From NCBI GenBank assembly GCA_021201095.1, contig JAJQFO010000061.1, positions 1-43,573 on the forward strand: DNA of 43,573 nucleotides, read 5' to 3'. Shown here piece by piece: positions 1,359 to 27,096 of this stretch. The notes beneath the pieces were generated by a model. It did no database searches and was not told where the DNA came from. It was given only the letters and a program-made list of their open reading frames with translations. Origin of the DNA: Lachnospiraceae bacterium (GTDB lineage Bacteria; Bacillota; Clostridia; Lachnospirales; Lachnospiraceae). A program made the position numbers and the translations under genes. Within the stretch, counting starts at the first letter, position 1. Each line of letters opens with the position of its first letter.

Positions 1359-1390
1359 ATGATCAATACCTCCTTAAAGGCTAATCTGTT

Positions 1391-7747: not shown

Positions 7748-7868
7748 CAAGCACCTCCCGGAGTTTTTTTTTGATTATTTTGCATCTGAAGATTCCATAA
7801 GAATCACGGCTTGATCTGTCGTTGCTTAATACAATCGTCATCTCCTGCCGTGCAATATAAGATCTGCT

Positions 7869-10826
7869 CTAATTCGCCGGTTTCCGTTCTTGAAAGCTTT
7901 GCAGATTGCCCATTTTTCTTACCTCGTCCAGCCACTCATAAACCTTAGTTCTTTTGTATTTAGGATTGCCATCCGCTCCTTTCTCCTGTTCAAGAGCGCA
8001 TGCCATTAAGGCATATTCATTTTCAATTGATGTGCTGAAATCTCCTTTATCGTCCGTGTTGATGGAAACAGACAACTGTGGACATTCTTCCTGCAATTTC
8101 TGGTCTTCTTCCAGGTGATTGTTATACCACCGTACAATCGGATGCTCCTGATAGGAACCCAGCCCCGCTATCATATAATTTGATGAAGGGTTGCATTCTA
8201 TTGAAATCCCTTTTTTCGCAATCTTTTGCTGCATGATTTTCTGCAAATATTCTGCACCCTCTACCCAGCATTCCGGCAGATGAATCTCTTTACGCACCTT
8301 TCCTTTTTCATAAACCATCGGCGCATAATGGTAAGCCCAATATAAATGTGTCACTTCTTGTATCTTACGTTTTCCTTCCATCCGCGGATATAGATCATTG
8401 ATCTCATAACCGTCAAAAGACTTTTTTCCCCAATAAGAAAATTGTATGGCGGATGGTTCTAAATAAACACCAGTTTCATAGCACTCCGGGTTGTCACCAC
8501 GAAGCTGCCACGCTTCATAATAGGTCCGAATGTTGTAATTGTCTTTGTATGCCTTTACACAATCCCCATACAGCTCATAAAAATTCGTATTAAACTCTGT
8601 CTCAATAAAGCTTCGCAATTCATCAATATTAACATTTATATGAGATTTTCCCAACTGGTGATACATCCAGGCCAGATTATCCAGATAATCCTGCACAGGT
8701 AAATAAATCAGATTGTGCTTACTGTTATAATAATGCCTGACATCTAGCCCCATTGCCAATGCATGGCCAAGACGGTCGCCACAGCTCAGATTCAAGAATT
8801 TAACAGCTTCATCAATTGCCCTGAGTCCATCCACAATATCCAAAAAATCTTCTCCTACATGGTATGTGGCACGAAGCTGCGGCATTATTTCCTTATCACA
8901 ATACGGCATATTGTCGTCTACGCAATGCTTCTTCAAATAACGAAAAGCCTGTGCAAACACCTCCGGTCTGCAGCCAATTTCACTTGAGCAAGCATCAATT
9001 CCTAATACCCTTTTCCCTTCATTCGGAAACTTCTCCCTTAATTCCACAATGCTTTCCGCCTGTCTCCTGACCTGCTGGCGTTTTCGGTAATTACGGCAAG
9101 TATATGAATCTTTAGCCCTTTTCAACTCAGAATCTTCTGATTTTACAAAATGGTAGACAAAATAATATCGCTTATCATCAATCACATTATCAATCAGCCG
9201 AATATCATCTCTGTCTTCTGTGGCTGAATCACGTGGAACAATCCGTATTTCCAGATTCTTCAGCCATCGGTTTGAAAGCGTATCCTCAATTGCCAGTTTC
9301 AGTATCCGTTGCTTATCATTGGCACTTACCAGAAAAAGCTTCTTCCTTCGATCATAATTCTGGAAATTTTTGAATCCGATTCTTTCATTGGATTGTATCA
9401 TCTCACTTCTCATGGATTCCTTTATAACAATGTACGCGTAAAACCAGTTCAACAGCTTCTGATTTTTTCCAGCGTTATAATATGCGTTTTGATACATACA
9501 ATACAAAAAAAATCTTTCACTCCGCAACTGTTCGCGAGCCCCGGAATCCCCATTGCCATATTCATAGTCCGGCACGCCGGCAAAAATATAGTCTGTTTCC
9601 TTTCCCAGGTTAGCCTTCCACTTCAACGAATTGATGGCTATCTGTAGCTGCTCTTTGTGAAGCAATAGCTCCTGCTCATTCTTGACCCAGCTTTCTACCG
9701 TGTCTTCCGTAAGTTCTTCCCATAAGTACTTATAATAATCCGGACATAGAATATACTGTAGCGCATGCAATGGGATAGGATTTTCAGAAATGAGAATATC
9801 TTCCAGCCATTCCCAGCAGCAATTCCCTTTCCCAGCCAGATTTTCAAACGGTCCGATTCCCTCCATCTCTGACAAAAAACTGCCGATTCGTACTGAAAGA
9901 TTTTTCTGAGAATTCAATGTATCCGAAATCAGCCGTGTCTGATTTTTCTGAAACAACCTGCTCCATTCGTATTTCCTTCCGGCCTGTTTCAGTTCGCGTA
10001 AAACTTCCTCACAATCCGGATCTATCCCCCTTTCCACCAATGCTTTACGATCCCTGGAAGGGAACAGTTCATACTCGCCAAGCTGAATCTGGCAATCACA
10101 GATTTTTGTAAACAAAAAAAGCCGAATCAATGCGGCTTGAAGGTACTGTATTTCCAATGGATTTTCCGTGTATTTCTGATCATACATTCTGTTTACATGC
10201 AATTTATTCTCATTCAGTTCCTGCAGTTGCTGATAAATATCTGGATCGTCCGTATGATTCATCATCTTAATCCAGCTAAGGCAAAAATGAGGTGAGGAGG
10301 CCCACAGATGAGTGTGATTATCCGAAAGTTCCTGCTGCAACAGCTTTTTCAAATAAAAGTTATTATGTCCGATCACAACCGGCCAGGAAAATGATGTTCT
10401 TTTTCTCTTTGTTCTCAGATCATCTGCCGCACAATAAGCCGTTGTCAATGAATCTTCACTTACCTTTACAGTAAGTTCTCTCCAGTCGAGCAAATGACTG
10501 TACCTACACAATACCTCACTGCCGCTCGTAAGCAGAACCTTATCCACAATCAATAATATCAGATCAAAGATATTAAGCGACCGAATATAAAAATCAGATA
10601 TTCCAATGTCTACATCAAAATATTTCTTTTTTGCTTCATCTGTCATATCCAATAGCGCATAATAGAAATTTTTCAATTCATCCTCAGTATATTCTGTCGC
10701 ATACGCACGGGCAATCTTTTGAAACTGTTTTTCCGATACCAGATCATACCGAATATTTTCCTTTAATATATCCCTTGGCGAAATTCTCTTGAGCAACAAT
10801 TCCACCGCCATTTTTATATTTACCAT
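7869..10826 (-). CDS. rdrB: RADAR RdrB-like adenosine deaminase superfamily protein, copy 1
   Basis: A 985-residue protein from ATG 10826. GGGAGA lies 7 nt upstream of this ATG, whereas the ATG five codons earlier has no Shine-Dalgarno. All metal and catalytic motifs of adenosine deaminases are present in order. They are HTH (171-173, in DNHTHL), HVGE (656-659, zinc His plus general-acid Glu), LGHA (His 688), ECNPSSN (877-883, like the E.CP.SN motif) and NTDDKG (TDD, 924-926). The chain is over twice the length of housekeeping Add, with large N-terminal and internal insertions, as in RdrB. RdrB is known to deaminate adenine nucleotides or RNA to inosine during phage infection, working with the RdrA ATPase. 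It starts 47 bp after the rdrA copy 1 stop. Confidence 0.85.
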   Translation of the reverse strand: MVNIKMAVELLLKRISPRDILKENIRYDLVSEKQFQKIARAYATEYTEDELKNFYYALLDMTDEAKKKYFDVDIGISDFYIRSLNIFDLILLIVDKVLLTSGSEVLCRYSHLLDWRELTVKVSEDSLTTAYCAADDLRTKRKRTSFSWPVVIGHNNFYLKKLLQQELSDNHTHLWASSPHFCLSWIKMMNHTDDPDIYQQLQELNENKLHVNRMYDQKYTENPLEIQYLQAALIRLFLFTKICDCQIQLGEYELFPSRDRKALVERGIDPDCEEVLRELKQAGRKYEWSRLFQKNQTRLISDTLNSQKNLSVRIGSFLSEMEGIGPFENLAGKGNCCWEWLEDILISENPIPLHALQYILCPDYYKYLWEELTEDTVESWVKNEQELLLHKEQLQIAINSLKWKANLGKETDYIFAGVPDYEYGNGDSGAREQLRSERFFLYCMYQNAYYNAGKNQKLLNWFYAYIVIKESMRSEMIQSNERIGFKNFQNYDRRKKLFLVSANDKQRILKLAIEDTLSNRWLKNLEIRIVPRDSATEDRDDIRLIDNVIDDKRYYFVYHFVKSEDSELKRAKDSYTCRNYRKRQQVRRQAESIVELREKFPNEGKRVLGIDACSSEIGCRPEVFAQAFRYLKKHCVDDNMPYCDKEIMPQLRATYHVGEDFLDIVDGLRAIDEAVKFLNLSCGDRLGHALAMGLDVRHYYNSKHNLIYLPVQDYLDNLAWMYHQLGKSHINVNIDELRSFIETEFNTNFYELYGDCVKAYKDNYNIRTYYEAWQLRGDNPECYETGVYLEPSAIQFSYWGKKSFDGYEINDLYPRMEGKRKIQEVTHLYWAYHYAPMVYEKGKVRKEIHLPECWVEGAEYLQKIMQQKIAKKGISIECNPSSNYMIAGLGSYQEHPIVRWYNNHLEEDQKLQEECPQLSVSINTDDKGDFSTSIENEYALMACALEQEKGADGNPKYKRTKVYEWLDEVRKMGNLQSFQERKPAN

Positions 10827-10872
10827 ACTCGTTTCTCCCATAGCGAAAGAGGATAAATCTCACCATACACCA

Positions 10873-13350
10873 TCAAAACTCATCATCTGTATGTATTGCT
10901 CCCATCCGCAGAGTGCTCACGCAGGCATCCGCACAATAAGAAACGGTTTCCCCAAACCATTTCCAGTCTTTTTCTGTGAAAGAAATGTCAAACACCATCT
11001 GGACAAACGGACATGCTTTGAAATTATTCGCCAGTTCCATTCCTGAACCATACTCACGATCCTCTTCCATTAACGTTTTTTCAATCTGAGTAAATAATTC
11101 CCGGAGGACATTCCACAATTCTCCTCCTGTGATGCTCCCCCTGCTGTCTACATGCATCCGCGTTTTTACACGCTGCAAGACACTGGAATAAATGTCCGTA
11201 TACTGAAAAGGAAGAGCCATCCCTCCCGATGTCACTGCCCAGGCCTTATAAGAAGATTCTAATATGGACATCTCTGAAATCACTCTTTTTGCATCTTCCG
11301 GCCTGCAATTCCACCCTGCACGCAAAAGGGCGCCAGCCACAGCTTCATGAATCTGATCAAAATAGTTTTCCCAATTATAGGAATTCTTTATAAATGCAAG
11401 AATATTAAAGTTGCAGTTTGCATTCTGAAAACAGAACGCCATCTGACCATTCGCTCCCGTTTCTTTCAGAGAAAGCCTGAGCGGCTCTACCTCCTCATAT
11501 TCTGAGGTAAACTGTTCAAAGCAAAAGCAGAACCATTCCAACTTAGTCAATATCTGGGGATGCGAATAAAATTCATCTCCAATATCTCCTTTTCCTCTTC
11601 GCCACGGAAACTGAATCTGTGCATTCCGAAGGTTTATTTTTTCCATGCATCCCCACAATCTCGGTTGTATATTTTCCGTCACTGCTTTCGAGCGTTCCGA
11701 CTCATTTTTATCAATATCTTCCTTTACCAGCCTTGGTACCAGATCATTCGACCAGCTCCCAGCCCAGCTATAACCCAGCAGCAAGTTCATTTGTTTCTGC
11801 TTCTCTTTCGAATCCTCTAAAAGATAGATTTTCTGCGTTTTACATGTATACAATATTAGTATCGCTTCTGCAAAGTGGAGTTCCTCCTGCCCTTCCGTTC
11901 CAAAATCATTTAAACTATTTAACAGTTCCCCATATCCACGCTGGAACAAAAATGCTGGTTTCCTTGGGTTATATCTCAAAAAGCCGTAGACCTGTGCTGC
12001 CCTCTGCGCCTGATGCTGCTCTGACATTTTATTCAGATATTCAAGTGCCTGATTGGCAAGTTCCTGATCTTCAAACCTGCTTAGCCACACGAACTCCTGA
12101 TAATAATCCTTCCGAAGCTTCATATACGCCACACGCTGTACGAAATCCTCCAGAAACCGGTCGCAATTGCGCCCTAACTTCTCCCGCTGTGAACGAAAAG
12201 ACGGTTTTTCAAGATTCTTATTCAGGAAGCTGAAATAGCCGTTCAGTTCCCTTAAAGAAAGCGGTTCCAGCAAATGTGGAGCAGATGATGTAATATTAAA
12301 AAGCATTCCGGTTCTATCCTTTATCAGGTGAAATAATGACTGCTTTACCGTGTCTCTATTCCGGTCAGCATCATCAAGCACAACACGCCATTGAGCTGAC
12401 ATCCCCGATATATGATCTCTAATATTAGGCATATAAATTCTGCGCTGAATCGGAAGCAGTTTTTCCAGATATTCGCGTGAATAAGTTCGTACATAATCCA
12501 ACTTGTAATCGTCAAACTCTTTATGAATAGACGGGAAGAGATTGTGCCCGGACTTCTGGGTCAGATATTCCATCTGTTCGTATTTGATGGCAACTATCAC
12601 AATCACATTTTTCACGGCGACATAACGATAGATACGTTCCAGATTCTGAAGACCAAGCTGTACATTCATATCAAGATCATCAACGCAAACCACCAGAAAA
12701 CGGTCTATTTTCTCATACCTGTTGCACAAAGCAGCGCCATTCATGACATCCAGATATTTTTTAGCGAGCATCTGAAATTCTTCGGCCAGTTCTACACTGC
12801 ATGCAAATTGCTTCAGTGTAGACAGCGACGGCTGATTCATCGAAAGGTCGCGTTCCTGATTTTTTATCATCTGATGATGTTCATATACCTTATTAAACTG
12901 CTGAAAAAGATCTGAGATTCCATCCATCCGCAGCTGCTTGTCCGGCCCATGATAATCTTTATTGCTCTGCTCTACGTTATTGAGCATTCTCGCCAGAATT
13001 ACATCAAAAACATCTTCCCTGGCGTCCAAAAGGGAAGCATCAACTCTCTCAATCAGATTAAACTGAACCTTGCCATTGTCATTCTCGCGGAATTTAAATT
13101 CTCCTTCCTCCATCGCCTTATAAACAGAAGACATGACTGAAGTTTTCCCACTTCCCCGATTCCCAATCAGGCTGATAACATCCCCATGCTTTTTATCTTT
13201 CTCCGAGACAATACTGCCGATCACGCCCTCGACCTGACTGTATACCTCCGCAAAAATAGACTCGCTGAATTTTTTGTAATCCTCAATTCTCTCCTCCGCA
13301 TCCGACTGGATTCTGACATATCGTTCTGTGCTGTTCTTCTTCTCTCTCAT
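10873..13350 (-). CDS. rdrA: RADAR RdrA-like KAP/AAA-type ATPase, copy 1
   Basis: About 825 residues from ATG 13350. I chose this start because AGGGGGG lies 8 nt upstream. An ATG at 13368 overlaps the previous gene's stop (ATGA) and is the alternative. Walker A is GNRGSGKT at 63-70 and Walker B is VVCVDDLD at about 220-227, both as in KAP-like ATPases. The long helical C-terminal half has no other recognisable enzyme motif. RdrA is the ATPase partner that assembles with RdrB to give the RADAR anti-phage complex. The gene is directly coupled to the TPR gene upstream and followed 47 bp later by rdrB copy 1, giving the fixed order TPR-rdrA-rdrB also seen in module 2. Confidence 0.82.
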   Translation of the reverse strand: MREKKNSTERYVRIQSDAEERIEDYKKFSESIFAEVYSQVEGVIGSIVSEKDKKHGDVISLIGNRGSGKTSVMSSVYKAMEEGEFKFRENDNGKVQFNLIERVDASLLDAREDVFDVILARMLNNVEQSNKDYHGPDKQLRMDGISDLFQQFNKVYEHHQMIKNQERDLSMNQPSLSTLKQFACSVELAEEFQMLAKKYLDVMNGAALCNRYEKIDRFLVVCVDDLDMNVQLGLQNLERIYRYVAVKNVIVIVAIKYEQMEYLTQKSGHNLFPSIHKEFDDYKLDYVRTYSREYLEKLLPIQRRIYMPNIRDHISGMSAQWRVVLDDADRNRDTVKQSLFHLIKDRTGMLFNITSSAPHLLEPLSLRELNGYFSFLNKNLEKPSFRSQREKLGRNCDRFLEDFVQRVAYMKLRKDYYQEFVWLSRFEDQELANQALEYLNKMSEQHQAQRAAQVYGFLRYNPRKPAFLFQRGYGELLNSLNDFGTEGQEELHFAEAILILYTCKTQKIYLLEDSKEKQKQMNLLLGYSWAGSWSNDLVPRLVKEDIDKNESERSKAVTENIQPRLWGCMEKINLRNAQIQFPWRRGKGDIGDEFYSHPQILTKLEWFCFCFEQFTSEYEEVEPLRLSLKETGANGQMAFCFQNANCNFNILAFIKNSYNWENYFDQIHEAVAGALLRAGWNCRPEDAKRVISEMSILESSYKAWAVTSGGMALPFQYTDIYSSVLQRVKTRMHVDSRGSITGGELWNVLRELFTQIEKTLMEEDREYGSGMELANNFKACPFVQMVFDISFTEKDWKWFGETVSYCADACVSTLRMGAIHTDDEF

Positions 13351-13364
13351 CTTGTGTACCCCCC

Positions 13365-14564
13365 TCATTCACGCCTTTTTGCCATGTCAAATAGCCCTCT
13401 CGATTCAAACTCTGTCAACAGCGCATATTTTTCCTCACTTGTCCAATCCTCATCGTTCGGACTACGGAAAAACTCATCAAAAAACCTGTTATTGGCGATA
13501 ACTTTTCCCAGTTTCTGAACCGCGTTTTCCATATATAATGCGAGCTTTGGTTCCTCCCACCAGACCCGGTATATCTCCTCCAGCCTTCTGTAGGATTTTA
13601 TCAGATACTCCAGATGTATCGGCTGATAATTCAGATATTTCGTTTCATTTTGGAAAATTTGATCCATTTTTATAAATTCAGCAGTTGCATCTGTAACATT
13701 TCCTTTTGAAAAATCCAAAAGTGCCACTTTGTATAGGGATCGATAGTTCCAAGGTGCAAGAGAGAATGATTTCTTATAAAACTCTAAAGCTTTCTCCCTG
13801 TCATCCTCCATCTTTTCATAATACCTGCCCAGCCGATAGGAAACATAGGCATCCCAAAAACTATCAAGATTCTTCGCTCTTTCGTAAAAAATCCGGCTGG
13901 TCGAATAATACTGCCAGTAACTGTCCGCAACATTTGCAGTGAGGACATAGCCCTGTCTGCAGTTACTGTTTGTCAGGCCCAATAAGAAAGCCCCATCCAG
14001 AAGTTCGCCAACATTAAAACGCGGCTCCTTTCCAAGTTTCTGGCATAAATTATTCACTTTGTTTTTACAGTTGATAAGAAAATATCGGTACCAGACGTCC
14101 GTCTGTACTGAATGTTTCGTGCATTTTTCCAGAATCGCAATTGCCTTAAAAAAAGCACTCCTGCATCGCTTCAGGCGAGACGGCGATGGATCATAAAAAT
14201 ATCTTTCCAGACAATTCCAATGTACAAGATCTGCTTCCACGTACGCGTCCGCCAGAACATCCAGTGCGCACGGAATCACTTCCTGATCCGCTTTAAAAAC
14301 GGAACGAATTGCTTCATTCAACAAATATTTTTCATTTATTTCCCACCGATCATCCACCTCTATGTCCGACCAGTGCCACTTTTTTCGAATATCCAGGTGC
14401 GTCTCCGGCTCTGTCAAAGACGCGCCCGCATACGTTGTATCCTCAAAAGGCTTCGCTTCGCTTTTTACGACAAAGACGCCGCATAATTTAAAAAATTCCG
14501 CAAAAAACAGATAGTTGGCATTATCAGCCGGATTGATTATAATATTTATATTCTTAAAGCGCAT
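13365..14564 (-). CDS. TPR protein with possible TIR-like N-terminus, candidate third RADAR component, copy 1
   Basis: A 399-residue protein. The N-terminal 60 residues have a Rossmann-like strand-helix-strand pattern (NINIIINPADN, a FFAEFFKLC helix, VFVVKSE). From about residue 125 the protein is helical. It is homologous to the protein at 20834-22198. Compare YRLGRYYEKMEDDREKALEF and APWNYRSLYKVAL here with YRIGKQMEIIQREEEAAKAY and NPLNFRALFKLAA there, and HLEYLIKSYRRL with ELEYVSKCYALL. These are TPR-type repeats. Both copies precede an rdrA gene, and here the stop overlaps an ATG of rdrA. A sensor or adaptor for the RdrA/RdrB machine is my inference. TIR catalytic residues cannot be assigned. 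Confidence 0.65.
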   Translation of the reverse strand: MRFKNINIIINPADNANYLFFAEFFKLCGVFVVKSEAKPFEDTTYAGASLTEPETHLDIRKKWHWSDIEVDDRWEINEKYLLNEAIRSVFKADQEVIPCALDVLADAYVEADLVHWNCLERYFYDPSPSRLKRCRSAFFKAIAILEKCTKHSVQTDVWYRYFLINCKNKVNNLCQKLGKEPRFNVGELLDGAFLLGLTNSNCRQGYVLTANVADSYWQYYSTSRIFYERAKNLDSFWDAYVSYRLGRYYEKMEDDREKALEFYKKSFSLAPWNYRSLYKVALLDFSKGNVTDATAEFIKMDQIFQNETKYLNYQPIHLEYLIKSYRRLEEIYRVWWEEPKLALYMENAVQKLGKVIANNRFFDEFFRSPNDEDWTSEEKYALLTEFESRGLFDMAKRRE

Positions 14565-14691
14565 CTAACGACCCATACCTCTCAAACTGCCTGCTATTAC
14601 TATTCTATGCCGCCGAAGAAAAATAATACATCAGTAACTGTTTTTTTACATTATTGAAGATGTCCACAATATGCAAAAATGCATCTTTTTT

Positions 14692-14732
14692 ATTCAATTT
14701 TACATTTTCTGCGTCAAAATACAAAATTGAAT
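14692..14732. promoter_or_regulatory. Long AT-rich inverted repeat upstream of module 1
   Basis: ATTCAATTTT (14692-14701) pairs with AAAATTGAAT (14723-14732), and ATTTT (14704-14708) pairs with AAAAT (14716-14720), around CTGCGTC. It lies about 130 bp upstream of the 399-residue TPR gene. A near-palindrome ATGCAAAAATGCAT (14671-14684) sits beside it. The right arm includes ATACAAAATTG (14719-14729), a 10/11 match to ATACAAAAATG in the operator-like repeat before the XRE gene. A binding site for that regulator is plausible. An RNA hairpin is the alternative. Confidence 0.5.
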
Positions 14733-14831
14733 CATATTAACACGCCATTACGAGTTTTACAAGATATTTTCAATAATTTTGGAAATTCCCGAAAAATAGA
14801 TCGACACGCAACCGCGCTTTCACAACATAAA

Positions 14832-17800
14832 TTACCAGATATTTCCAAACCCGGTCGGGATCTTCAAAAAAGACTGCATGTTTCCCATTTTACGCACATT
14901 CTGAACCCAATCATATATATCCGACTTCTTATAGATGCAATTTCCATTTGCATCCCGAACGTTCCCAAGCGCACTGACAATCAGTGCATACTCATTTGCA
15001 AGTTCTGTTGAAAAAACACCCTGATTATCTGTATTGATTGAAACATTCAGTTGTGGGCATGCTTCCAGTTTTTCCGGATCATTTGTCAGCCCTTTATTAA
15101 AGAAGCGTATAATTGGATGGTCGTCATACGAATGAACCCGATTAATCATAATATTAGAAGACGGATTTGTCTCAATCCCGATTTCACGATGCGCGATATC
15201 CTTCTGCAATTCTTTCTGCACGATACAGATTGCATCTATCATAAAATCCGGAATCTTTATTTTCTTTGTCTTATCCCCAAGAATTCTGACTCCCTCATTA
15301 TAGTGATAGAAATGATTCATAATAACAGCAGGCAGAATATAGCGGATTTCCTTTTCCTCTGGATAAGAATGATTGATACTGTAATCTTCCCAAAGTGACT
15401 TTATATTTCTTTCACGATTATAATAGCCATCTGCATACAGGCCAGGATCATCTCCCCTCAGCATCCAGGAATAATAATAAGTATCTATATTGACATCGAA
15501 TGGCATCGTGCCGTCTTTTGGAATTTCTCCATACCGCTCATCATTGATACAGGCTTCACGGATTATCTTTTTTATGTATTTCATTTCCAGTGCTTTTCCA
15601 TATATCAGGGAAAAATACAGCTGGAATTCCCGCCGGAGATACTCCAGCAACGGTTCTACTCCTGTTATTCGATATTCAATCAGCTTATGATACAACCACA
15701 CTACATTATCCAGATAATCCTGATAGCGTATATTAACCATGTTTCCCGTTTGACGATACCATTCCCTCGGCTCCATACCCAGCACGGTACAATGTCCCAT
15801 GCGGTCTCCGTAATCCAGATTTAAAAAACGGATGGCTTCATCAATCGCCCTCAGGCCATCCACTATATCCTGGAACACTTCCCCCACATGGTAAGTCATA
15901 CGCAGCTGGGGCAGCTGAGGCTTCTGGCTCAATCCCTGATAACAGGAGTGATTGCGGAGTACCCGATAAGCTGTGGCAAACACTTCCGGTCTGCATCCAT
16001 CCTCATTTGAACAAGTATCGATTCCTCTTACACGCTGGGCCACCTCCGGATTTGATTTGCGTAGCTGGATTAACGCTTCTGCCTGCCTGCGAACCTCGCA
16101 TCTTAAATCATAATGGCGGCAAAACATATGCCCAAAGCCATCATGCTTTTCCAGCGTATCGTCACGTCGTTTTGAAAAATGGAACACATAATAATACGGT
16201 CTCGTCTCATCTATCTGCTCTGTATGAAAAGTTCCCTCTTCTGATGCATCCTCTGCCCAGTCAGGAGGAAAAAATTGAGCAGAATGGGTAGCGTTTGTTA
16301 AATTATTCGCACGTTCGATAGGCTTTATATTCGGAAATCCGATGCTCTGGTCATACTTCTTGATCCATTCTGCATTTTCGGCGCAGGTGTTTCCAGGTTT
16401 AATCCGTATCTCCAGACTCCTGATTACCTGATACCGAAATACTGCTTCTACCGCGATCCTCGCCAGTTCTTCTGCCGAATATTCAGGAGTAAACCATGTC
16501 TTTCTGGCATTATAAGCCCGAAAATTAAGAAAACCTTCCCTGTCGTTACTTTGCAGCAGCTCCATCCGGAAAGCTTCCTTTATCACCAGATATGCATAAA
16601 ACAAGGAATAATGCCGGTCACTCAATCTTTCCAGGCCGCTGTATCGTCTTCGGAACATCTGATACAAAAGCCATCTTTCCCCAATCATCACTGCATCCGC
16701 CTGCTGGTCTTTGTACCAGCTGCCGGCAGCATTCATCGCATAATCTTTATTTTCGCGATTTCCCTCATGAAGAAAGCCATTGATAATCCTCTGCAGGTCG
16801 TTTCTACTGTCAGAAAGTTCCGGAGATTTCAGCAGATATTCCAATTCCTCGTATGTCTGTCGGCTCCATTCTTTTTCATAAAAAGAAATGTCCCCGGATC
16901 TAAAAATCCAGGCACATTCCTCCAAGGGCATTTCACCGTATTCTTCTTCTTTCAAATAATCCAGAATTCTATGAAGCTTAAGTTCCCTGTGATTCCGCTG
17001 AAGATATACAATATCATCTATTTCTTTTTCATAAAATTCCATGCCACTAAAGAAATGCTCCCACTTCCAGCCCTGCCGTCGAAGCGTGTCTTCAAACAAC
17101 CAGTAAAAGCCCGGACAATTCCTTCTGCATTCCCTTTTGAAAGCTTCTGTCGGATATCTTCGCTCATTTTCATGCTCCAGCAGGAAAGCTTCCACCTGCT
17201 CTTTTTCGAAAAGATATCCCAGAAGCCAGTCCCAACAGGCGGTATATTCTCCCAGCCGAATCATTTGATTCGTCAGTTCCGAGAACAAGAACACACGGAT
17301 CAGGGCTGCCTTCAGATGCATCATCTGAAATTTTCGCTCATCCGGTTCGTATTTATGACTGGCATGAACCACCCTCTGTGAACTTTCCATCTTCTGTACC
17401 TGCCGCGATACAGCCGGATCATTCACCTTGTTCATCAGGGTCAGCCATGACAAATCAAAATAATGTGTCGAAGCGAAAAGGTGAAAATGGTTGTCAGAAA
17501 TCCCCTCATCCATAATTTTATTCAACTGGGCGTTATTGTGGCCTGTCACGGTCTTCCATGTATAAGTATTCCTGATCTTGCCATGCTTGTAATCAATATT
17601 CGCATATTTGGCAGCGACAAAAATGCTGCTGTCAACCTTATTCGTCACTTCGCGCCAGACCTGAAGATACTGAAAACGGCATACAGCTTCCTCATGCCTG
17701 TTCACAAGCACAAGTCTCGCGAACAGGTCAACAAGCTCATATAGGTTCAGCGATATCTTTTCCCTGGGTTGAAACTTCCTGCCATCCTCCTCGCCCAATT

Positions 17801-17999
17801 CCATATCTACCCGATCCCTGAGATGCTGGATTCTTCTTCCATTATCAGCCTCATCCGAAGTGGGCTCACTGACAAAATACAATTCTTCTATCAATTGTTC
17901 ACGCAGGCTGTCATACTGCACTTCATCTCTGATAATCGCATCCGGCGATATACAGCGAAACAGCCTGATAATCGTATTGCATAACTCGTCCATAGTCAC
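14832..17999 (-). CDS. rdrB: RADAR RdrB-like adenosine deaminase superfamily protein, copy 2 (TDN variant)
   Basis: 1055 residues from a GTG at 17999. AGGGAG lies 5 nt before this GTG, and an ATG two codons on (17993) is the alternative. Motifs are HFH (171-173), HVGE (704-707), MGHC (His 736), ETNPSSN (943-949) and NTDNQG (990s). The first Asp of the usual TDD (D991, zinc ligand) is kept, but the second is Asn (N992). In characterised adenosine deaminases that second Asp contacts the purine ring. The rest aligns with copy 1, for example the VRRQAE helix, the GCRPEVFA segment and the DIVDGLRAIDEA helix after HVGE. The start is 17 bp from the rdrA copy 2 stop, so the two are an operon. It may have changed substrate preference or be partly impaired. 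Confidence 0.85.
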   Translation of the reverse strand: MTMDELCNTIIRLFRCISPDAIIRDEVQYDSLREQLIEELYFVSEPTSDEADNGRRIQHLRDRVDMELGEEDGRKFQPREKISLNLYELVDLFARLVLVNRHEEAVCRFQYLQVWREVTNKVDSSIFVAAKYANIDYKHGKIRNTYTWKTVTGHNNAQLNKIMDEGISDNHFHLFASTHYFDLSWLTLMNKVNDPAVSRQVQKMESSQRVVHASHKYEPDERKFQMMHLKAALIRVFLFSELTNQMIRLGEYTACWDWLLGYLFEKEQVEAFLLEHENERRYPTEAFKRECRRNCPGFYWLFEDTLRRQGWKWEHFFSGMEFYEKEIDDIVYLQRNHRELKLHRILDYLKEEEYGEMPLEECAWIFRSGDISFYEKEWSRQTYEELEYLLKSPELSDSRNDLQRIINGFLHEGNRENKDYAMNAAGSWYKDQQADAVMIGERWLLYQMFRRRYSGLERLSDRHYSLFYAYLVIKEAFRMELLQSNDREGFLNFRAYNARKTWFTPEYSAEELARIAVEAVFRYQVIRSLEIRIKPGNTCAENAEWIKKYDQSIGFPNIKPIERANNLTNATHSAQFFPPDWAEDASEEGTFHTEQIDETRPYYYVFHFSKRRDDTLEKHDGFGHMFCRHYDLRCEVRRQAEALIQLRKSNPEVAQRVRGIDTCSNEDGCRPEVFATAYRVLRNHSCYQGLSQKPQLPQLRMTYHVGEVFQDIVDGLRAIDEAIRFLNLDYGDRMGHCTVLGMEPREWYRQTGNMVNIRYQDYLDNVVWLYHKLIEYRITGVEPLLEYLRREFQLYFSLIYGKALEMKYIKKIIREACINDERYGEIPKDGTMPFDVNIDTYYYSWMLRGDDPGLYADGYYNRERNIKSLWEDYSINHSYPEEKEIRYILPAVIMNHFYHYNEGVRILGDKTKKIKIPDFMIDAICIVQKELQKDIAHREIGIETNPSSNIMINRVHSYDDHPIIRFFNKGLTNDPEKLEACPQLNVSINTDNQGVFSTELANEYALIVSALGNVRDANGNCIYKKSDIYDWVQNVRKMGNMQSFLKIPTGFGNIW

Positions 18000-18016
18000 C
18001 CCGGCTCCCTGCCTGT

Positions 18017-20743
18017 CTAATCAACTGATGTAAGATATGTTTCATCATTGAATGCCTGCATGACATTCTCAAGGATAAAATGGGTAACTGTTCTTTCAGG
18101 AGGAAGTCCATTTGAGCCTTCCGTCTCCATATCCAGCAGCCACTGATAAAATGGAGACAACCGAAAAGCTTTCTCGAAGCTCTCCGCCGTATCCGTTAGC
18201 CTGTAAGCTGAGTCAATGGTTTTAAGATGTTCACAGAATCGTTCGAGCATCCTTTTGAAAGCCGTAATAAAGCTATCTGAATTTCCCAGCCGTGTCATGA
18301 CGATTGCCGGCATGTTTTCTGCTCTGCATTCCTGAAAGACCCTTTTAATTAAATTATATGTAAGATCGAGGTTATAGAGCGGCAGCATAAACGAGCCATG
18401 TTCCCTCTCCCAGGAATAAAATTCCTCCCGAAAAGTGCCAAACGTATCCCGCAGCGTTTGCATAGCAGTCTCCATAAGGGACCGTCTCTCAGCATATGGC
18501 TCAGTTTCCATAGCAACAGCCGCCGCACTGTTCATCATACGTTCTATCTTTCCGAGAAATTCTGCATAGCAAAATGTATATTTCAAAAAAGCAGTAAGTT
18601 CAAAATCCCCCTTCGTATGCTCCTCTTTTATTGAGAATTCCAGCCGGTTCTCAATTCTCTCACATTTCATGTCCTCATCCGGCCAAACCATTGTATCTGT
18701 ATGCAGCATACAAAGAAACAGGAACCTCCTGAGTTCGTTGTAGAAGCAAGCGGCGTTTTCCATCTCAAACGATGCGTCAAAGCTAATCCGATTATTATCA
18801 ACATATCCCACTATATATTCTTTTCTCTGTCCATACTGGATCTGAGACGGTTCCTGGACCGGAATTACCTCCGGGAACAAATATTCCGCCCATTTGCCAC
18901 ATACCGAACGGCCAATCATGCCTTTCAGGATCTGATGGCATTCCAGAAACTCTGTCTCGCGTTCCCCAAGGACAGGCCGTCCTGCTGCTTCCCCGGATGG
19001 CTGCAGCAATTCATAGCACCTGCTCCAGCCAATCCTGCTTTTAGCAAACTGGTATCTGCGGTAAGTTCCGGTCAGATAGATTGTGAACGAATAAAGGATA
19101 CAGCTTACAAGGTTTCGCGAATATCCGCCATTTTCCCGCGTCATATGGTACAGGCTGTGTACCAGTTCTGCATAGCTATAAGGAACCCTGCTGTTATCAA
19201 GTACCGGATCATCTGATATGATTCCCTTTTCGGCATCAGCCACCAGTTCGGGGCGTTCCTGTCGCAGACGCCGGCTTAACGGAATCGTTTTCCGACAGAT
19301 TTTCTGGACAAGCATTTCCGCACGCCGATCTATTTCATATTCCTGCAACGAACGAAACATCTGGTATTCTTCTGCCCGATTCAATTTGTCATGAACAAAC
19401 CGGAAATAAAAATCCTCCTTCATCCGCTCTATGTTCTTTTCAAATTTTTCCAGTTCCTCCCGTTTAGGCAGCGCATGGTCATAAGCTTCCATTTCCATCA
19501 AAAGTTCCGAAACATTATAAAGAGCCCGCAGTGTCCTCGGCATGAAAAAGTGCCTCTTTTTGCCCTCCCAGTCAAAATAAATCCCGGTTCGTTCGCCCAG
19601 AAAAGCAAGGCTGAATTCCTTGATTGACAAGAATTTCTGCTCCTGGAAGGGTTTCAGGACATTCCCCTTCCCCTCAAGTTCAATCCGGATTCTCTTTTCA
19701 TTCTCCAGATCTTTATTATTCCATTCAGGCATATACAGCCGCGTAAAAATCGGAAATGTTTTTTCTACAAACTGAGACGCAATTGTCCTGACTCCCTCAT
19801 TTCCCTCATCATACTGCTCTTTAAAATAATCCACGCAGTGATTATAAAGATTCTGTTCGTTATAGGTCGTCATCACTATCACGCCGGGAACTGTCAAATA
19901 TTTATAAATGCAATTCATAATCTTGTAACAGCCCCAGTTCCATACACCCTTTTCTTTTTTCTGCTTTGCCATATCCAGATCGTCAATCATAATCACCAGA
20001 TAGGACTCTCTGGCATTGGCGGCATAATCATTTTCCCCTTCCAGCGTCTCCAAATACAAATGCACAAGATCCTCAAAGCTGCCTCGAAGCTTCTGGCTGC
20101 TTGCAAGATTTTTCAGCTTCTCAAAAGTCGAATACCCTTCGTATTTCCGCACGTTCTGATTCAGGGAAACGAAATCTTCATAAACCCTGTCAAATCTGTC
20201 AAAAAGCATCCGGTTATCGTAGCCATTGAGCTTCGATGAGTTTCTTCTGGTACGTGCCTGAACTACTGCGTACATATTCGCAAGAATCAGAGCAAAGATA
20301 TCCTCAGACTCTTCCAGTTCGGACGCATCAATACAGTCAAGTACATGGAACTTCAAATTGCCTCCCTGAAGTTCTTCCCGGAAACGTATATCTCCCGCGC
20401 TTTGCGTCTTATCACCTCCAGAATACCTGCGTAATGCCATCGCAAAAGAATTCATTGAAGAGCTCTTTCCGGTTCCTCTTCTCCCCACAAATGAAATAAT
20501 GTTCGAAAGTTCAAATTCCGCACTGTTGTGCTCCGTATTCCACCTGTTCCGCAAACGCGCATACTCTCTATTCGCAAGGATGATCTCCTCCGTCAGTTTT
20601 GTCGCGTAATCATATACGGATGAAAAAACGGAATTTTTGAACTGTGAATAATCTTCACACACAATTCCATTCGAAAGCAACTTTTTTAAAGACAGGATTC
20701 GATACCGGCTCATATCATCCAGATTTTCTTCCGTTCTTCCCAT
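18017..20743 (-). CDS. rdrA: RADAR RdrA-like KAP/AAA-type ATPase, copy 2
   Basis: A 908-residue protein with Walker A GRRGTGKSS at 87-95 and Walker B VIMIDDLD at about 250-257, followed by a VIVMTTYNEQ strand (sensor-like). Both motifs and the surrounding order (a DASELEESEDIF segment after Walker A, matching DASLLDAREDVF in copy 1) show that the two RdrA proteins are paralogues. The C-terminal 600 residues are helical and poorly conserved between copies. The Shine-Dalgarno GAGGGAG lies 7 nt from ATG. It is separated from the upstream TPR gene by a terminator-like hairpin, and rdrB copy 2 follows after 17 bp. It is expected to be the ATPase partner of the 1055-residue deaminase. Confidence 0.82.
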   Translation of the reverse strand: MGRTEENLDDMSRYRILSLKKLLSNGIVCEDYSQFKNSVFSSVYDYATKLTEEIILANREYARLRNRWNTEHNSAEFELSNIISFVGRRGTGKSSSMNSFAMALRRYSGGDKTQSAGDIRFREELQGGNLKFHVLDCIDASELEESEDIFALILANMYAVVQARTRRNSSKLNGYDNRMLFDRFDRVYEDFVSLNQNVRKYEGYSTFEKLKNLASSQKLRGSFEDLVHLYLETLEGENDYAANARESYLVIMIDDLDMAKQKKEKGVWNWGCYKIMNCIYKYLTVPGVIVMTTYNEQNLYNHCVDYFKEQYDEGNEGVRTIASQFVEKTFPIFTRLYMPEWNNKDLENEKRIRIELEGKGNVLKPFQEQKFLSIKEFSLAFLGERTGIYFDWEGKKRHFFMPRTLRALYNVSELLMEMEAYDHALPKREELEKFEKNIERMKEDFYFRFVHDKLNRAEEYQMFRSLQEYEIDRRAEMLVQKICRKTIPLSRRLRQERPELVADAEKGIISDDPVLDNSRVPYSYAELVHSLYHMTRENGGYSRNLVSCILYSFTIYLTGTYRRYQFAKSRIGWSRCYELLQPSGEAAGRPVLGERETEFLECHQILKGMIGRSVCGKWAEYLFPEVIPVQEPSQIQYGQRKEYIVGYVDNNRISFDASFEMENAACFYNELRRFLFLCMLHTDTMVWPDEDMKCERIENRLEFSIKEEHTKGDFELTAFLKYTFCYAEFLGKIERMMNSAAAVAMETEPYAERRSLMETAMQTLRDTFGTFREEFYSWEREHGSFMLPLYNLDLTYNLIKRVFQECRAENMPAIVMTRLGNSDSFITAFKRMLERFCEHLKTIDSAYRLTDTAESFEKAFRLSPFYQWLLDMETEGSNGLPPERTVTHFILENVMQAFNDETYLTSVD

Positions 20744-20769
20744 ATATTTTCTCCCTCGATTTTTGCTAT

Positions 20770-20818
20770 AAAAAACGCAACAGTTCAGAATCGCGAAAAT
20801 TCGTTGTTCTGAACTGTT
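20770..20818 (-). terminator. Terminator-like or attenuator hairpin between TPR gene 2 and rdrA copy 2
   Basis: AACAGTTCAGAA (20779-20790) pairs perfectly with TTCTGAACTGTT (20807-20818), a 12-bp stem. Read on the minus strand it is followed after GCG by six Us (20770-20775). It begins 15 nt after the TPR gene stop and ends only 26 nt before the rdrA ATG. That leaves no room for a full promoter downstream of it, so partial read-through or RNA stabilisation is likely. Confidence 0.8.
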
Positions 20819-20833
20819 ACGAATACTTCTCTA

Positions 20834-22198
20834 TCAAGAACAAGTAACGTTCAATTTTTCTAGTTTGTTTTTTATTGCGTTTTTAGTCAGACGCTCCTCA
20901 ACACATTCACAGAAAGCGTTCCAGTCTGGAACCTCAGAATACATTGCGCTCAAATATTTGTTTTTTCTTACACACTGTTTGACCTGCTCCACCCGCCTGT
21001 AGCAAAACACCATATCCTCTTCCCGGTTTCCAAGGTATTCATCGATTCTTCCAAGCAGCGCATAACATTTACTTACATACTCAAGCTCCAGCGGGGGTAA
21101 AAAAAGCACCTGCTTTTCAAACCTGCTGTCATCATCTGTGTTTAGCTGCAAAATATTCAAAATTCCCTTTAAATACTCGGCCGACTTACTCCATTCTTTT
21201 CTCCGGAACTGATCCGCTGCCAATTTAAAAAGTGCTCTGAAATTCAGAGGGTTCATCATATAGGAAATTCGATATGCCTTAGCTGCCTCCTCCTCGCGCT
21301 GGATAATCTCCATCTGCTTCCCTATCCTGTAATAATGAAAGCTGTTGCATAGATTCACATCACATGTCTTCGTACAGTTCAGAAGATAGGATATGGAAAA
21401 AGATTTGTATGACCGGTCAAGGCTGGAAATTTTTGCTTTAAGATTCTCTACCATGTAGAAATCATCCACATAATCATAAACGCTTTCCAGCTGTTCCAGC
21501 ACTTTCCCCGTTCCATATGTGCGTTCAATCTTGAGAAGATTACAATATTCATTCACCTTTCGCTTGCAAAAGCACAAAGCATAAGCCAGATATTCCATCC
21601 CATCATACTTCTGCTTTTCAATAAGTCCTTCGCGAAAGTCCTCAAGACACTTAATGATACTTTTCCAGCCGCCATACCTGTCTGTCTTTTCCAGAGAACC
21701 TTCTGCTTTTTTGATTTTCTCAGCCTCTTTATCAACAAGCATTCTCATCGAGTAAATGCCACTTGCCAGGCGGTGTAACACGTTGTATTTACAATATATC
21801 TGAATAAGTTTATTAAACACTTTCCTGCTGTCGGAGGACAGTCGAGGGGAGAATTCCTGGAAAATTTCTTTCCATGCATTTACAAGCAAATCATCTCGTA
21901 ATACCGGCTTCTTTTTCCCATTTTGAGGAACCCATAATTCTTCTACAGGCACATGAACGTGGACATCTGATTGCTGACTAAATCTCCTTTCCCACGTGCC
22001 ATCCTGATCTCCAATATAGATAACAAAATCAAATGTTCCTGTATCTTTTGCAATCACTTCATTCAACTTGTCATCGTGCTCATTAAATATAAATATAAAA
22101 AACGAGAAGCCGGTCCATTTCAGAAATTCCTTAAAGTATACCGCTTCCGCATAATCTTTCGACGCGCAGACCACACAGGCCTCTCTTAAACCGCGCAT
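20834..22198 (-). CDS. TPR protein with possible TIR-like N-terminus, candidate third RADAR component, copy 2
   Basis: A 454-residue protein. Residues 5-75 alternate strand and helix (ACVVCAS, then an amphipathic AVYFKEFLKW helix, FSFFIFIFNE, FDFVIYIGD), compatible with a TIR or flavodoxin-like fold. Residues about 110-440 are helical, with TPR units such as AAKAYRISYMMNPLNFRALF and WSKSAEYLKGIL. It is the paralogue of the 399-residue protein in module 1. Its Shine-Dalgarno GGAGG is 8 nt from ATG. It is the first gene of module 2 and lies 59 bp downstream of the XRE regulator. A role in sensing infection or loading RdrA is inferred from conserved position only. Confidence 0.65.
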   Translation of the reverse strand: MRGLREACVVCASKDYAEAVYFKEFLKWTGFSFFIFIFNEHDDKLNEVIAKDTGTFDFVIYIGDQDGTWERRFSQQSDVHVHVPVEELWVPQNGKKKPVLRDDLLVNAWKEIFQEFSPRLSSDSRKVFNKLIQIYCKYNVLHRLASGIYSMRMLVDKEAEKIKKAEGSLEKTDRYGGWKSIIKCLEDFREGLIEKQKYDGMEYLAYALCFCKRKVNEYCNLLKIERTYGTGKVLEQLESVYDYVDDFYMVENLKAKISSLDRSYKSFSISYLLNCTKTCDVNLCNSFHYYRIGKQMEIIQREEEAAKAYRISYMMNPLNFRALFKLAADQFRRKEWSKSAEYLKGILNILQLNTDDDSRFEKQVLFLPPLELEYVSKCYALLGRIDEYLGNREEDMVFCYRRVEQVKQCVRKNKYLSAMYSEVPDWNAFCECVEERLTKNAIKNKLEKLNVTCS

Positions 22199-22257: not shown

Positions 22258-23295
22258 CTAACTGTTATCCATGCTTTCGCGCAACAATTCATAAGTCAAA
22301 GCGTCATCCTCCTCCCTAAGCGAGGTCTGAAACTCCGCCGTAGAAAGATCCAGAAAGAACGACATCAGTTTTGCCCGTTCCGATCTGCTCATCCTCTTAT
22401 CACCTTTCCGTATCGTACTTTCATCAATCGTGTAATACTCTTCCACTGGTGCATATCTTAAAATCCTGTTAAGCCTGTCCCCATCCCTGTCTTCCTGTGA
22501 TAAAAGGCTGTCCATCTCACTTCGGCGAACCAGTATCTCATCGGAATTCAAACGCAGATAGGGAATAATCTGCTCCAGCTTCTCTTTCCCCAGTTTCTGT
22601 CTTGAAAGGAAAATACGATTGGCAACCGGATGCTTCTTTTCTCCGGCTGATACAGTCAGAACGAGTCCCAGACGACATTCCGCCTGCTTTATAAGGAAGC
22701 TTCGGTGTCTGAATTCCACCATGGATACCTCTCCAATCTGTTCATTCGAAAGAAGGCAGAACGCAGTAGAAAGCTTCGTAGAGATCACCATCTGTCCTTC
22801 ATAAGTCTTTACTCTCGGCAACCCATTCCTGTTCTTTTCACCCGTATCCAGCCGGAACAACACTTCACATATTTCCTCATCAGAAGAAGCTGAAAACATA
22901 AGCTTCCCTTCCAAGATTTTGTTTTCAAATGGCGAAGTACTGTGAAAGTACGTGAAGTAAGAATTCCCAAGATACCCCTCAAATGCAGGATCTCCCGGTT
23001 CTGTAATAAACGAAGTACCAGAAAGGCGAAATCTGTGGTACTGCGCACTCTCATTCACAAAATAATCTACCGGGCAGCCCAAAACTTCCGAAAAAGCAGT
23101 GATCTGATACAAAGATATCGGTGTTTTCTCCGTATAAAGTCTGGAAAGCTCCGGCTGGCTGATTTTGTACCCACGCTCCTCACACATCCTACGCAGTTTA
23201 GCCTGATTAATATGCTGCTCGTCCAGTTTCTTCCTTATTCTCTTCCAGACTGCACTCGAAAACTCCTGCTTTGTTTTCCATTCCTGTTTTTCCAT
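22258..23295 (-). CDS. XRE-family regulator at the head of the RADAR locus
   Basis: About 345 residues from ATG 23295, chosen because AGGGGGA lies 7 nt upstream. An ATG 13 codons earlier lacks a Shine-Dalgarno. The HTH spans about residues 13-80 (LDEQHINQAKLRRM, KISQPELSRLYT, ITAFSEVLGCPVDYFV). The remaining 260 residues form an alpha/beta C-terminal domain I do not recognise. It contains a recurrent EEICEVLFRLDTGEKN-type strand pattern and may be a ligand or partner-sensing part. The gene has its own sigma-A-like promoter and palindromes upstream, and the TPR-rdrA-rdrB genes follow in the same direction. It is the likely repressor or activator of the defence locus and probably autoregulates. 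Confidence 0.8.
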   Translation of the reverse strand: MEKQEWKTKQEFSSAVWKRIRKKLDEQHINQAKLRRMCEERGYKISQPELSRLYTEKTPISLYQITAFSEVLGCPVDYFVNESAQYHRFRLSGTSFITEPGDPAFEGYLGNSYFTYFHSTSPFENKILEGKLMFSASSDEEICEVLFRLDTGEKNRNGLPRVKTYEGQMVISTKLSTAFCLLSNEQIGEVSMVEFRHRSFLIKQAECRLGLVLTVSAGEKKHPVANRIFLSRQKLGKEKLEQIIPYLRLNSDEILVRRSEMDSLLSQEDRDGDRLNRILRYAPVEEYYTIDESTIRKGDKRMSRSERAKLMSFFLDLSTAEFQTSLREEDDALTYELLRESMDNS

Positions 23296-23406
23296 CTTCG
23301 CATCCCCCTGGTCATACCAGATCACACAAACCATGCACTCATAATGCGTGTGCCGGCGAATTATCAGGTAGGGCCAGCGACAATCTTATCAGACGATAAA
23401 TTAACA

Positions 23407-23444
23407 TATACAAAAATGTATGTGTTTTCATTCATTTTTGTATA
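23407..23444. promoter_or_regulatory. Perfect 12-bp inverted repeat, operator candidate
   Basis: TATACAAAAATG (23407-23418) and CATTTTTGTATA (23433-23444) are perfect inverted arms with a 14-bp spacer. They lie between the predicted promoter and the XRE start codon, about 20-60 bp downstream of the expected transcription start. This is a suitable place for autorepression. Confidence 0.65.
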
Positions 23445-23663: not shown

Positions 23664-24293
23664 TCAGGAATCACCATCCGATTTTTTCGCAAGCTCAAAA
23701 ATATCAGTCAATGTTTTCTCCCGGTCCTCCATGTTCTTCACGAATTTTGCTATATTTTCATCTTCGATTTTAAGAGCCTTTTCCATAAATATCCTGTTTG
23801 CATCGCCAGAACCCGCAAAATCACCAGTCTTCAGCAGATACTGCAACATTTCCATCTCCATTTTATGCTTATGTTCCTGGTGTCTGACCCAGGTCTGCTG
23901 GTATTGCTTAATGTCCAGCCATTTCGCCACAAGAGAAGCTGCCAATATCGCCATCAGCAGCACCGCCGCACCGGTCAGATAGCCAGCCCAGTTCGTCTGC
24001 AGAATTACCTCAGAAAGCTTCCCCTCACATGCAGCCGCTACAATTTTAATGATGGAACTCAACACAGGAATTGCTATCAGAACCAACAGGAAAATCCATT
24101 TGTACCGAAAATTTTTCTCCTTGTTTTCACGCGCTTTTCTACACACATCAATATATGTCTTTTTATAACAATCTCGGAAAAACATCTCCTCTTCTGATTC
24201 ACTACTGTGAGTTCGAATCCATTCCTGCTCCCACATTGTCAGAAAACCGACATCATTCATATTCTTGCTATTATCATCGTTATGTTTTTTCAT
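23664..24293 (-). CDS. SLATT-like two-TM membrane protein
   Basis: A 209-residue protein. A soluble, charged N-terminus is followed by TM1 (about 66-86, IFLLVLIAIPVL) and TM2 (about 103-124, GYLTGAAVLLMAILAA). The cytoplasmic helical C-terminus begins with KWLDIKQYQQTWVRHQEHKH and ends in charged helices. This layout, a pair of TMs followed by a W..R/H-rich helix and a G(D)F near residue 155, fits the SLATT/DUF4231 two-TM effector class. SLATT membrane proteins are known accessory partners of some RADAR systems. The Shine-Dalgarno GAGGG is 9 nt from ATG. Family membership rests on topology and motif shape, so other two-TM proteins remain possible. Confidence 0.6.
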   Translation of the reverse strand: MKKHNDDNSKNMNDVGFLTMWEQEWIRTHSSESEEEMFFRDCYKKTYIDVCRKARENKEKNFRYKWIFLLVLIAIPVLSSIIKIVAAACEGKLSEVILQTNWAGYLTGAAVLLMAILAASLVAKWLDIKQYQQTWVRHQEHKHKMEMEMLQYLLKTGDFAGSGDANRIFMEKALKIEDENIAKFVKNMEDREKTLTDIFELAKKSDGDS

Positions 24294-26860: not shown

Positions 26861-27096
26861 AATATAATGCTCTTTCCCTGATAATTTCTCCACATTTGTT
26901 GTAATGTGGATATTCCCAAAAGGCAGGTCACGCTCCTGCAAGGCTTTTACATCAGCAGCGTATGTTGTAACACGGCTGATTAGTGTTCCGTGAAATTCGT
27001 ATAGTCTGCCCCATCAAACATGCGCAGGTCTACGACTGCTGAGATTTCTGTGCTGATAAATCGCCAGCCATCAAATCTCGCCCTTAATTTGTCCAC
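26861..27096 (-). pseudogene. Possible gene remnant upstream of the SIR2 gene
   Basis: From a GTG at 27096 the frame reads about 40 protein-like residues (including DGWRFISTEISAVVDLRM and DGADYTNFTEH), then stops. The next frame continues with ISRVTTYAADVKALQERDLP and NIHITTNVEKLS straight into the SIR2 start. This looks like one small protein broken by a frameshift near 26980. I do not recognise the family. CCACAT/ATGTGG (26890-26909) forms a small hairpin inside it. Confidence 0.3.

Follow-up and report, generated by a model that had tools for sequence, protein, structure and literature searches.

The locus described here raises the question of why one bacterial genome should carry two complete sets of RADAR genes side by side. 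It lies on contig JAJQFO010000061.1 of the Lachnospiraceae bacterium assembly GCA_021201095.1, of which positions 1 to 43,573 were analyzed (a stretch of 43,573 nucleotides, hereafter the window). On the minus strand, a gene for a tetratricopeptide repeat (TPR) protein is followed by genes for an RdrA-like AAA+ ATPase and an RdrB-like adenosine deaminase, and this order occurs twice in tandem, as module A (22198-14832) and module B (14564-7869). Judged from sequence comparison, the two modules are on balance probably separate, differently triggered TPR-RADAR machines that are expressed under one Cro/CI-type regulator.

Organization of the Tandem Modules

Module A consists of the genes for the TPR protein (20834..22198, 454 amino acids, aa), the ATPase (18017..20743, 908 aa) and the deaminase (14832..17999, 1055 aa, GTG start). 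After an intermodule gap of 267 bp with promoter-like and operator-like sequence (14565..14831), module B repeats this arrangement with a TPR protein (13365..14564, 399 aa), an ATPase (10873..13368, 831 aa) and a deaminase (7869..10841, 990 aa). Against a TPR family hidden Markov model (HMM), TPR-A and TPR-B score 359 and 369 bits, each protein being itself among the rows of that model. Genes within a module are spaced by 17-90 bp or overlap by 4 bp, and in both modules rdrB directly follows rdrA on the same strand, with a gap of 17 bp in A and 31 bp in B. The two same-strand sets described by a first-pass annotation of this DNA are thus borne out by the open reading frame (ORF) listing of the window, in which all six frames are open at just these positions.

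It is very improbable that an assembly or binning artefact has fused two genomes here. The assembly is a draft of 362 contigs with 5.35% contamination, which speaks for such an error. However, the window contains no N and the longest exact repeat between the modules is at most 18 bp, so an assembly fold-over is unlikely, and third-position GC is similar (0.42-0.50) from the SLATT-type gene upstream of module A through module B.

Relationship to Known RADAR Proteins

Sequence comparison supports firm homology of both modules to RdrA and RdrB. Walker A and a DDLD Walker B, claimed earlier for both ATPases, were located as GRRGTGKSS and IDDLDM (starting at residues 87 and 253) in RdrA-A and as GNRGSGKTS and VDDLDM (69 and 229) in RdrA-B. 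The HxH, HVGE, GH, PSSN and TD series is likewise complete in both deaminases, with SDNHFHL at 168, YHVGE at 703, GDRMGH at 731, ETNPSSN at 943 and SINTD at 987 in RdrB-A, and SDNHTHL at 173, YHVGE at 660, GDRLGH at 688, ECNPSSN at 882 and SINTD at 926 in RdrB-B. RdrB-A matches the Escherichia coli RdrB structures, including PDB 8fnv, with an E-value of 1.9e-26 in a PDB sequence search. By a manual count on that alignment, its H704, E707 and H736 fall on H498, E501 and H530 of the E. coli protein, which are zinc and catalytic residues according to the available text of PMC9994260. For copy A, three of the five residues of the histidine tetrad plus catalytic Glu are thereby aligned to E. coli RdrB, the HxH pair being placed by motif alone. 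A 19-row RdrA profile searched against PDB at E-values up to 0.1 returned two sequences alone (E 1.5e-21 and 1.7e-20), both of them ATPases of RADAR entries (8fnt/8fnw, and 8hr7 and its kin) that are named Archaeal ATPase; 8fnw and 8hr7 also contain the RdrB-A match.

In PADLOC, the deaminases reached 121 (B) and 104 (A) bits with RdrB, and RdrA-B 43 bits with RdrA; RdrA-A had no PADLOC match at 0.01. The NCBIfam RdrB model gave 186 (B) and 170 (A) bits at a cut-off of 800, and the RdrA model 77 (B) and 44 (A; 43.8, E 1.2e-11) bits at a cut-off of 600, so that neither module reaches the equivalog cut-offs NF041743/NF041744. The profile searches proposed as a check by the first-pass annotation therefore returned RdrA/RdrB and RADAR-structure matches, while both modules stay far under the curated thresholds. 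Because the structure matches are clear and the scores fall below these cut-offs, we file both modules, on their sequences, as a divergent RADAR subtype and not as the curated equivalogs. For comparison, the accessible part of PMC9994260 gives mutual identities of just 22-25% (ATPase part of RdrA) and 24-28% (C-terminal part of RdrB) for experimentally active RADARs.

Like the RADARs of E. coli, C. rodentium and S. suis, each module places an AAA+ RdrA beside RdrB, a zinc-type adenosine deaminase that shares their active-site motifs, in the order A-B. Unlike them, the modules have an extra TPR gene in first position and stand in tandem, and their sequences lie far below the equivalog cut-offs. 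Cad1 (CARF-ADA), compared by profile matches and descriptions alone, shares the adenosine deaminase domain with a weak profile match, whereas no CARF domain is among the Pfam matches of the window. Nothing points to different substrates for the two copies, as had been suggested, and their catalytic motifs are the same.

The TPR Protein as a Probable Third Component

Gene calling and iterated profiles yielded 47 other loci with an RdrB of at least 400 aa, 46 of them distinct. In 17 distinct loci the TPR gene stands directly before rdrA, each time in a single TPR-RdrA-RdrB module. In an RdrA tree of 27 rows, a branch with support 100/99 splits the TPR rows (all 17 single modules and both window modules) from eight rows, none of which has a TPR gene; L103, with its RdrA split in two frames and no TPR, was excluded from this tree. 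The RdrB tree includes L103, and there the same clade has the TPR gene in 17 of its 18 other rows. L103 (11372-13982) itself appears as a broken module, with RdrA in two frames, no TPR gene and an otherwise intact RdrB. Besides gene order, TPR and RdrB identities diverge together (r 0.91 over 19 modules, 0.70 when thinned to 15), a correlation equaled in none of 5000 permutations. With E-values up to 10, the TPR profile detected no other protein among 749 ORFs, a search in which HMMER filters discard most weak matches. On sequence grounds, the TPR gene appears to be a genuine third component of this RADAR subtype and no mere neighbor. We propose TPR-RADAR as a candidate subtype, recognized by a TPR gene directly before rdrA and by its place on one side of the supported RdrA branch; both window modules show these two features.

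Pfam TPR_12 is matched by 10 of the 19 TPR rows at 0.01, and TPR-B itself has no Pfam match at that threshold. The predicted fold of TPR-B (pLDDT 82) has a small alpha/beta start followed by a TPR-like superhelix. Its fold-match lists consist of TPR-like and other helical-repeat chains, many of them tied, and are therefore uninformative on function. A TIR-like first domain, guessed from the sequence, was dropped, since the alpha/beta start of the model includes a long stretch with pLDDT <50 and the lists are of helical-repeat type; nothing is claimed for it.

Standalone, Csx27-associated and SLATT-associated RADAR are listed in the available portion of PMC7699616, and the same two membrane proteins, Csx27 and SLATT, are named in that of PMC11676413. 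Within the accessible parts of the open-licence literature searched (PMC9994260, PMC7699616, PMC11676413, PMC12948488, PMC10952713, PMC13327615), neither a TPR gene nor tandem modules were found for RADAR.

Ancestry of the Two Modules

By BLASTP, with E-values for single comparisons, the modules share 33% identity in RdrB (E 2e-166), 22% in RdrA (7e-34) and 22% over 222 columns in TPR (1e-9); the alignments give 35.6, 20.7 and 18.0%, respectively. Within RdrA, A-B identity is 16.7% in the C-terminal part versus 24.9% in the AAA part, and the family medians are 19.9 and 27.1%. Sensing is proposed for the C-terminal part in the available text of PMC9994260.

In the trees, the lone module of Sporofaciens musculi (L006) is the sister of module B, with support of 100/100 in RdrB, 100/100 in RdrA and 99/96 in TPR. 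This module is the nearest to module B (51% identity in RdrB), has a regulator of the same family (33% identity) and a similar operator-like site; in contrast to the window, it is a single module with that site before the regulator alone. The Sporofaciens genome holds one RADAR-type RdrB. Approximately unbiased (AU) tests reject A and B as exclusive sisters for RdrB (p 0.0006), RdrA (3e-8) and TPR (0.0085), and a recent duplication is thereby discarded for all three proteins, in agreement with the earlier remark that the copies are too diverged for one. A grouping of A, B and L006, chosen after the first tree was seen, is not rejected (p 0.29, 0.25 and 0.45 for RdrB, RdrA and TPR), which leaves room for an ancient duplication after which the Sporofaciens line lost A. 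The sequence trees show that the modules are not recent duplicates; they were probably either joined from different lineages or form a very old pair of which one member was lost in the Sporofaciens line.

On these grounds, we regard it as improbable that the modules duplicated in place, diverged and became co-specialized to form mixed RdrA/RdrB assemblies. The identical gene order and the unrejected clade with the Sporofaciens module would fit such a history. Nevertheless, an exclusive A-B pair is rejected, and among 171 module pairs only 12% (RdrB), 22% (RdrA) and 20% (TPR) are less alike than A and B. Mixed assemblies, raised as an option by the first-pass annotation, therefore find no support, A and B being less alike than most pairs of modules taken from different genomes. 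In addition, when identities to the 17 other loci are profiled, RdrB-A is tied neither to the RdrA nor to the TPR protein of module B (r 0.01 and 0.10). The profile of RdrB-B tracks its own partners RdrA-B (r 0.71) and TPR-B (r 0.78), probably through L006. The data are compatible with different triggers for A and B.

A Possible Shared Regulator and Operator-Like Sites

Upstream of module A, at a distance of 59 bp, lies a gene for a Cro/CI-type regulator with a C-terminal beta-barrel (22258..23334, minus strand, 358 aa). It has the N-terminal helix-turn-helix of such regulators, scores 20.7 bits with Pfam HTH_26 (cut-off 22), and the assignment draws on a predicted model and its fold match. 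In the models, the regulator family appears to combine a helix-turn-helix with an eight-stranded barrel, and similar barrels include that of Cap15, a receptor for cyclic dinucleotides. The family also stands beside RADAR in L006, L047 and L145. It is not specific to RADAR, since none of eight further loci of the family, a fetched subset of those listed, has RADAR genes in its stretch.

Two double-palindrome operator-like sites were found on the minus strand when the L006 site was used as sole query in the 43.6 kb. The best match in the window, O2 (14670..14706), is in the intermodule gap and shares 25 of 32 letters; the second, O1 (23407..23444), is upstream of the regulator and shares 23 of 32. 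The maxima of 60 Markov windows ranged from 20 to 24, and none of 1000 gap-sized shuffles reached 25. A promoter-like sequence precedes each site on this strand: P1 (23472..23500; TTGTTA, 17 bases, TAGAAT) and P2 (14734..14762; TTGTAA, 17 bases, TAATAT), both with TG before the -10. P1 was found by a promoter scan (9/12), which returned 52 such sites where 43.5 were expected, so P1 is weak evidence; P2 was read from the sequence and agrees in 4/6 positions per hexamer. The spacing to the -10-like hexamer is 28 bases in O1, O2 and the L006 site alike. The loose motif TATRCA-N4-TGYATR gives 40 matches versus 26 expected, with 3 of 100 shuffles reaching 40; it is not rare by itself, and therefore only the double site is informative.

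A 17-nucleotide inverted repeat (14692-14732; 88% complementary, 7 nucleotides between the arms) lies between P2 and TPR-B and overlaps the first operator half. An RNA family scan of the window detected nothing, and folding of the intermodule gap as RNA gave no signal (z -0.93).

A Model for the Locus

In the proposed mechanism, each RdrB would form a deaminase core that turns ATP/dATP into ITP/dITP, with RdrA as an AAA+ partner that activates or gates it. As sensor or adaptor, each module's own TPR protein would link a phage cue to RdrA. The regulator would bind the double palindrome at its own promoter and also the copy in front of module B, and may thereby repress and release the two modules together. 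A and B would form separate complexes and present two receptors of different specificity with the same outcome, which may widen the phage range under one control of a costly, toxic activity.

A more elaborate version of this mechanism is put forward only tentatively, and we think it rather doubtful as a whole. In such a two-receptor array, the TPR protein would be a trigger-specific receptor, and two independently acquired machines would have come under one ligand-sensing repressor by way of a copied operator. One signal would then arm both machines, and different phage cues would fire them.

Several observations weigh against two machines under joint control. O1 alone does not exceed chance across the window, as 5 of the 60 null windows reach at least 23, and a score of 23 also occurs in L010, a locus that lacks this regulator. 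O2 is degenerate in its first half, and P2 is below the threshold of the promoter scan and absent from its list. The hexamer of L006 was picked from the alignment register, and the equal 28-base spacing is therefore partly built in. Moreover, the tandem pair occurs in one genome only, and the sensor role of the TPR protein is suggested by analogy. The null-range score of O1 and the equal score of L010, together with a further defence-like gene in the neighborhood (a SIR2-TPR protein) and the failure of the pair to recur in any other locus examined, lend something to the view that chance brought two unrelated defence modules next to each other in a defence island, each under separate control, with an accidental likeness to operators. 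We consider this unlikely, but to be taken seriously. Against it stands the result that an outside query has its two best sites of the window in the two regulatory gaps, with a score for O2 that neither the 60 null windows nor the 1000 gap shuffles attained.

The integrity of module A is the other difficulty for the reading as two jointly controlled machines. RdrA-A departs from the family where RdrA-B conforms, with A259 in place of N (18/19) and N277 in place of E (17/19). On account of these departures, module A may work differently or poorly. Just after Walker B, RdrA-A has an insertion together with the changed residues A259, K263 and N277, at positions where 17-18 of 19 relatives agree. 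Further, RdrB-A follows neither RdrA-A (r -0.17) nor TPR-A (r -0.01) in its identity profile, and the unity of module A therefore rests on gene order. A decaying or regulatory copy A, with defence exerted by module B alone, would account for the deviating residues, for the missing PADLOC match of RdrA-A and for end branches that are longer in A than in B in each tree, where the lack of a close relative of A itself lengthens them. We nevertheless judge this quite improbable, since the three frames of module A are open over 454-1055 codons and retain Walker A/B, the conserved R406 and the deaminase motifs.

Occurrence of RADAR Relatives and Pairs

RdrB matches of at least 60 bits were present in 15/397, 3/47, 15/392, 1/398 and 17/396 genomes of five draws. 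These draws overlap; a two-row query was used in the first two and a 19-row query in the others, and the genome of the window is counted in all but the 396-genome draw. Of the three matches in the 47 genomes, one is an 87-aa fragment, and at most two candidates per genome were scored in the draws of 397, 392, 398 and 396, so further copies were possibly undercounted. Weaker matches mostly occupy frames 300-400 aa long, toward the C terminus of the model, and are probably ordinary adenosine deaminases.

Among the other RdrB loci, 46 of them distinct, no fetched stretch contained a second RdrB; of these 47 stretches, which include one duplicate, 11 extend less than 5 kb on one side. The idea that copies A and B represent separate clades that recur together thus holds in that they occupy different places in the trees, and fails in that no other distinct locus pairs them. 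Two RADARs of different kinds were observed in each of four genomes (G029, G176, G1197 and G345), on different contigs or 0.8 Mb apart, the locus pairs being L043/L059, L144/L148, L045/L046 and L049/L050.

With regard to mobile carriage, no phage record matches RdrB-B, and two viral contigs contain a relative. Seven plasmid records match RdrB-B, that of Aureibacter well (465 bits, 78% of the query covered) and the other six with 104-164 bits; none matches TPR-B at 0.001. The Aureibacter tunicatorum plasmid pAT1 (Bacteroidota; L117) has an RdrA-RdrB-SLATT set without TPR, in which RdrA and RdrB are annotated as hypothetical and the third as a SLATT domain protein.

Neighboring Genes

Upstream of the regulator, a SLATT-type protein with two transmembrane segments (23664..24293, minus strand, 209 aa) is a possible RADAR accessory. 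It scores 39 bits with NCBIfam SLATT_1 (cut-off 41) and 27.9 bits with Pfam DUF4231 (cut-off 24.7), and homologues stand directly beside 5 of the 17 single TPR modules. The window resembles the SLATT- and Csx27-associated RADAR in the available portion of PMC7699616 in having a SLATT-type two-transmembrane gene near the modules. It differs in that this portion names no TPR gene, and in that the window's SLATT gene is upstream of the regulator and not beside RdrA/RdrB.

Downstream of module B lies a DUF4062 gene (6278-7750), which was left out of the system because a relative is near just one other RdrB locus (L112). The protein encoded at 24518-26941 has a SIR2_2 domain and TPR repeats by Pfam, is ThsA-like by PADLOC (50 bits) and is likely a further defence gene. 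A thymidylate-kinase-like protein (639-3853) adjoins an opposite-strand gene whose match to NB-ARC is weak (20 bits, cut-off 23.5). At 29747-32650, a fucose pyrophosphorylase/kinase-like protein lies where GC is 0.46-0.53, which marks a break in composition from the 0.34-0.37 of about 24-30 kb.

Implications

According to the available text of PMC9994260, the trigger of RADAR is unclear. Modules that each have their own fast-diverging TPR subunit would offer a concrete candidate for the receptor, and a genome with two TPR-RADAR modules would allow an internal comparison of such candidates. Should the regulator and its pair of sites prove real, they would exemplify the joint arming of two RADAR machines, which is of interest because runaway deamination of ATP should be costly to the cell.

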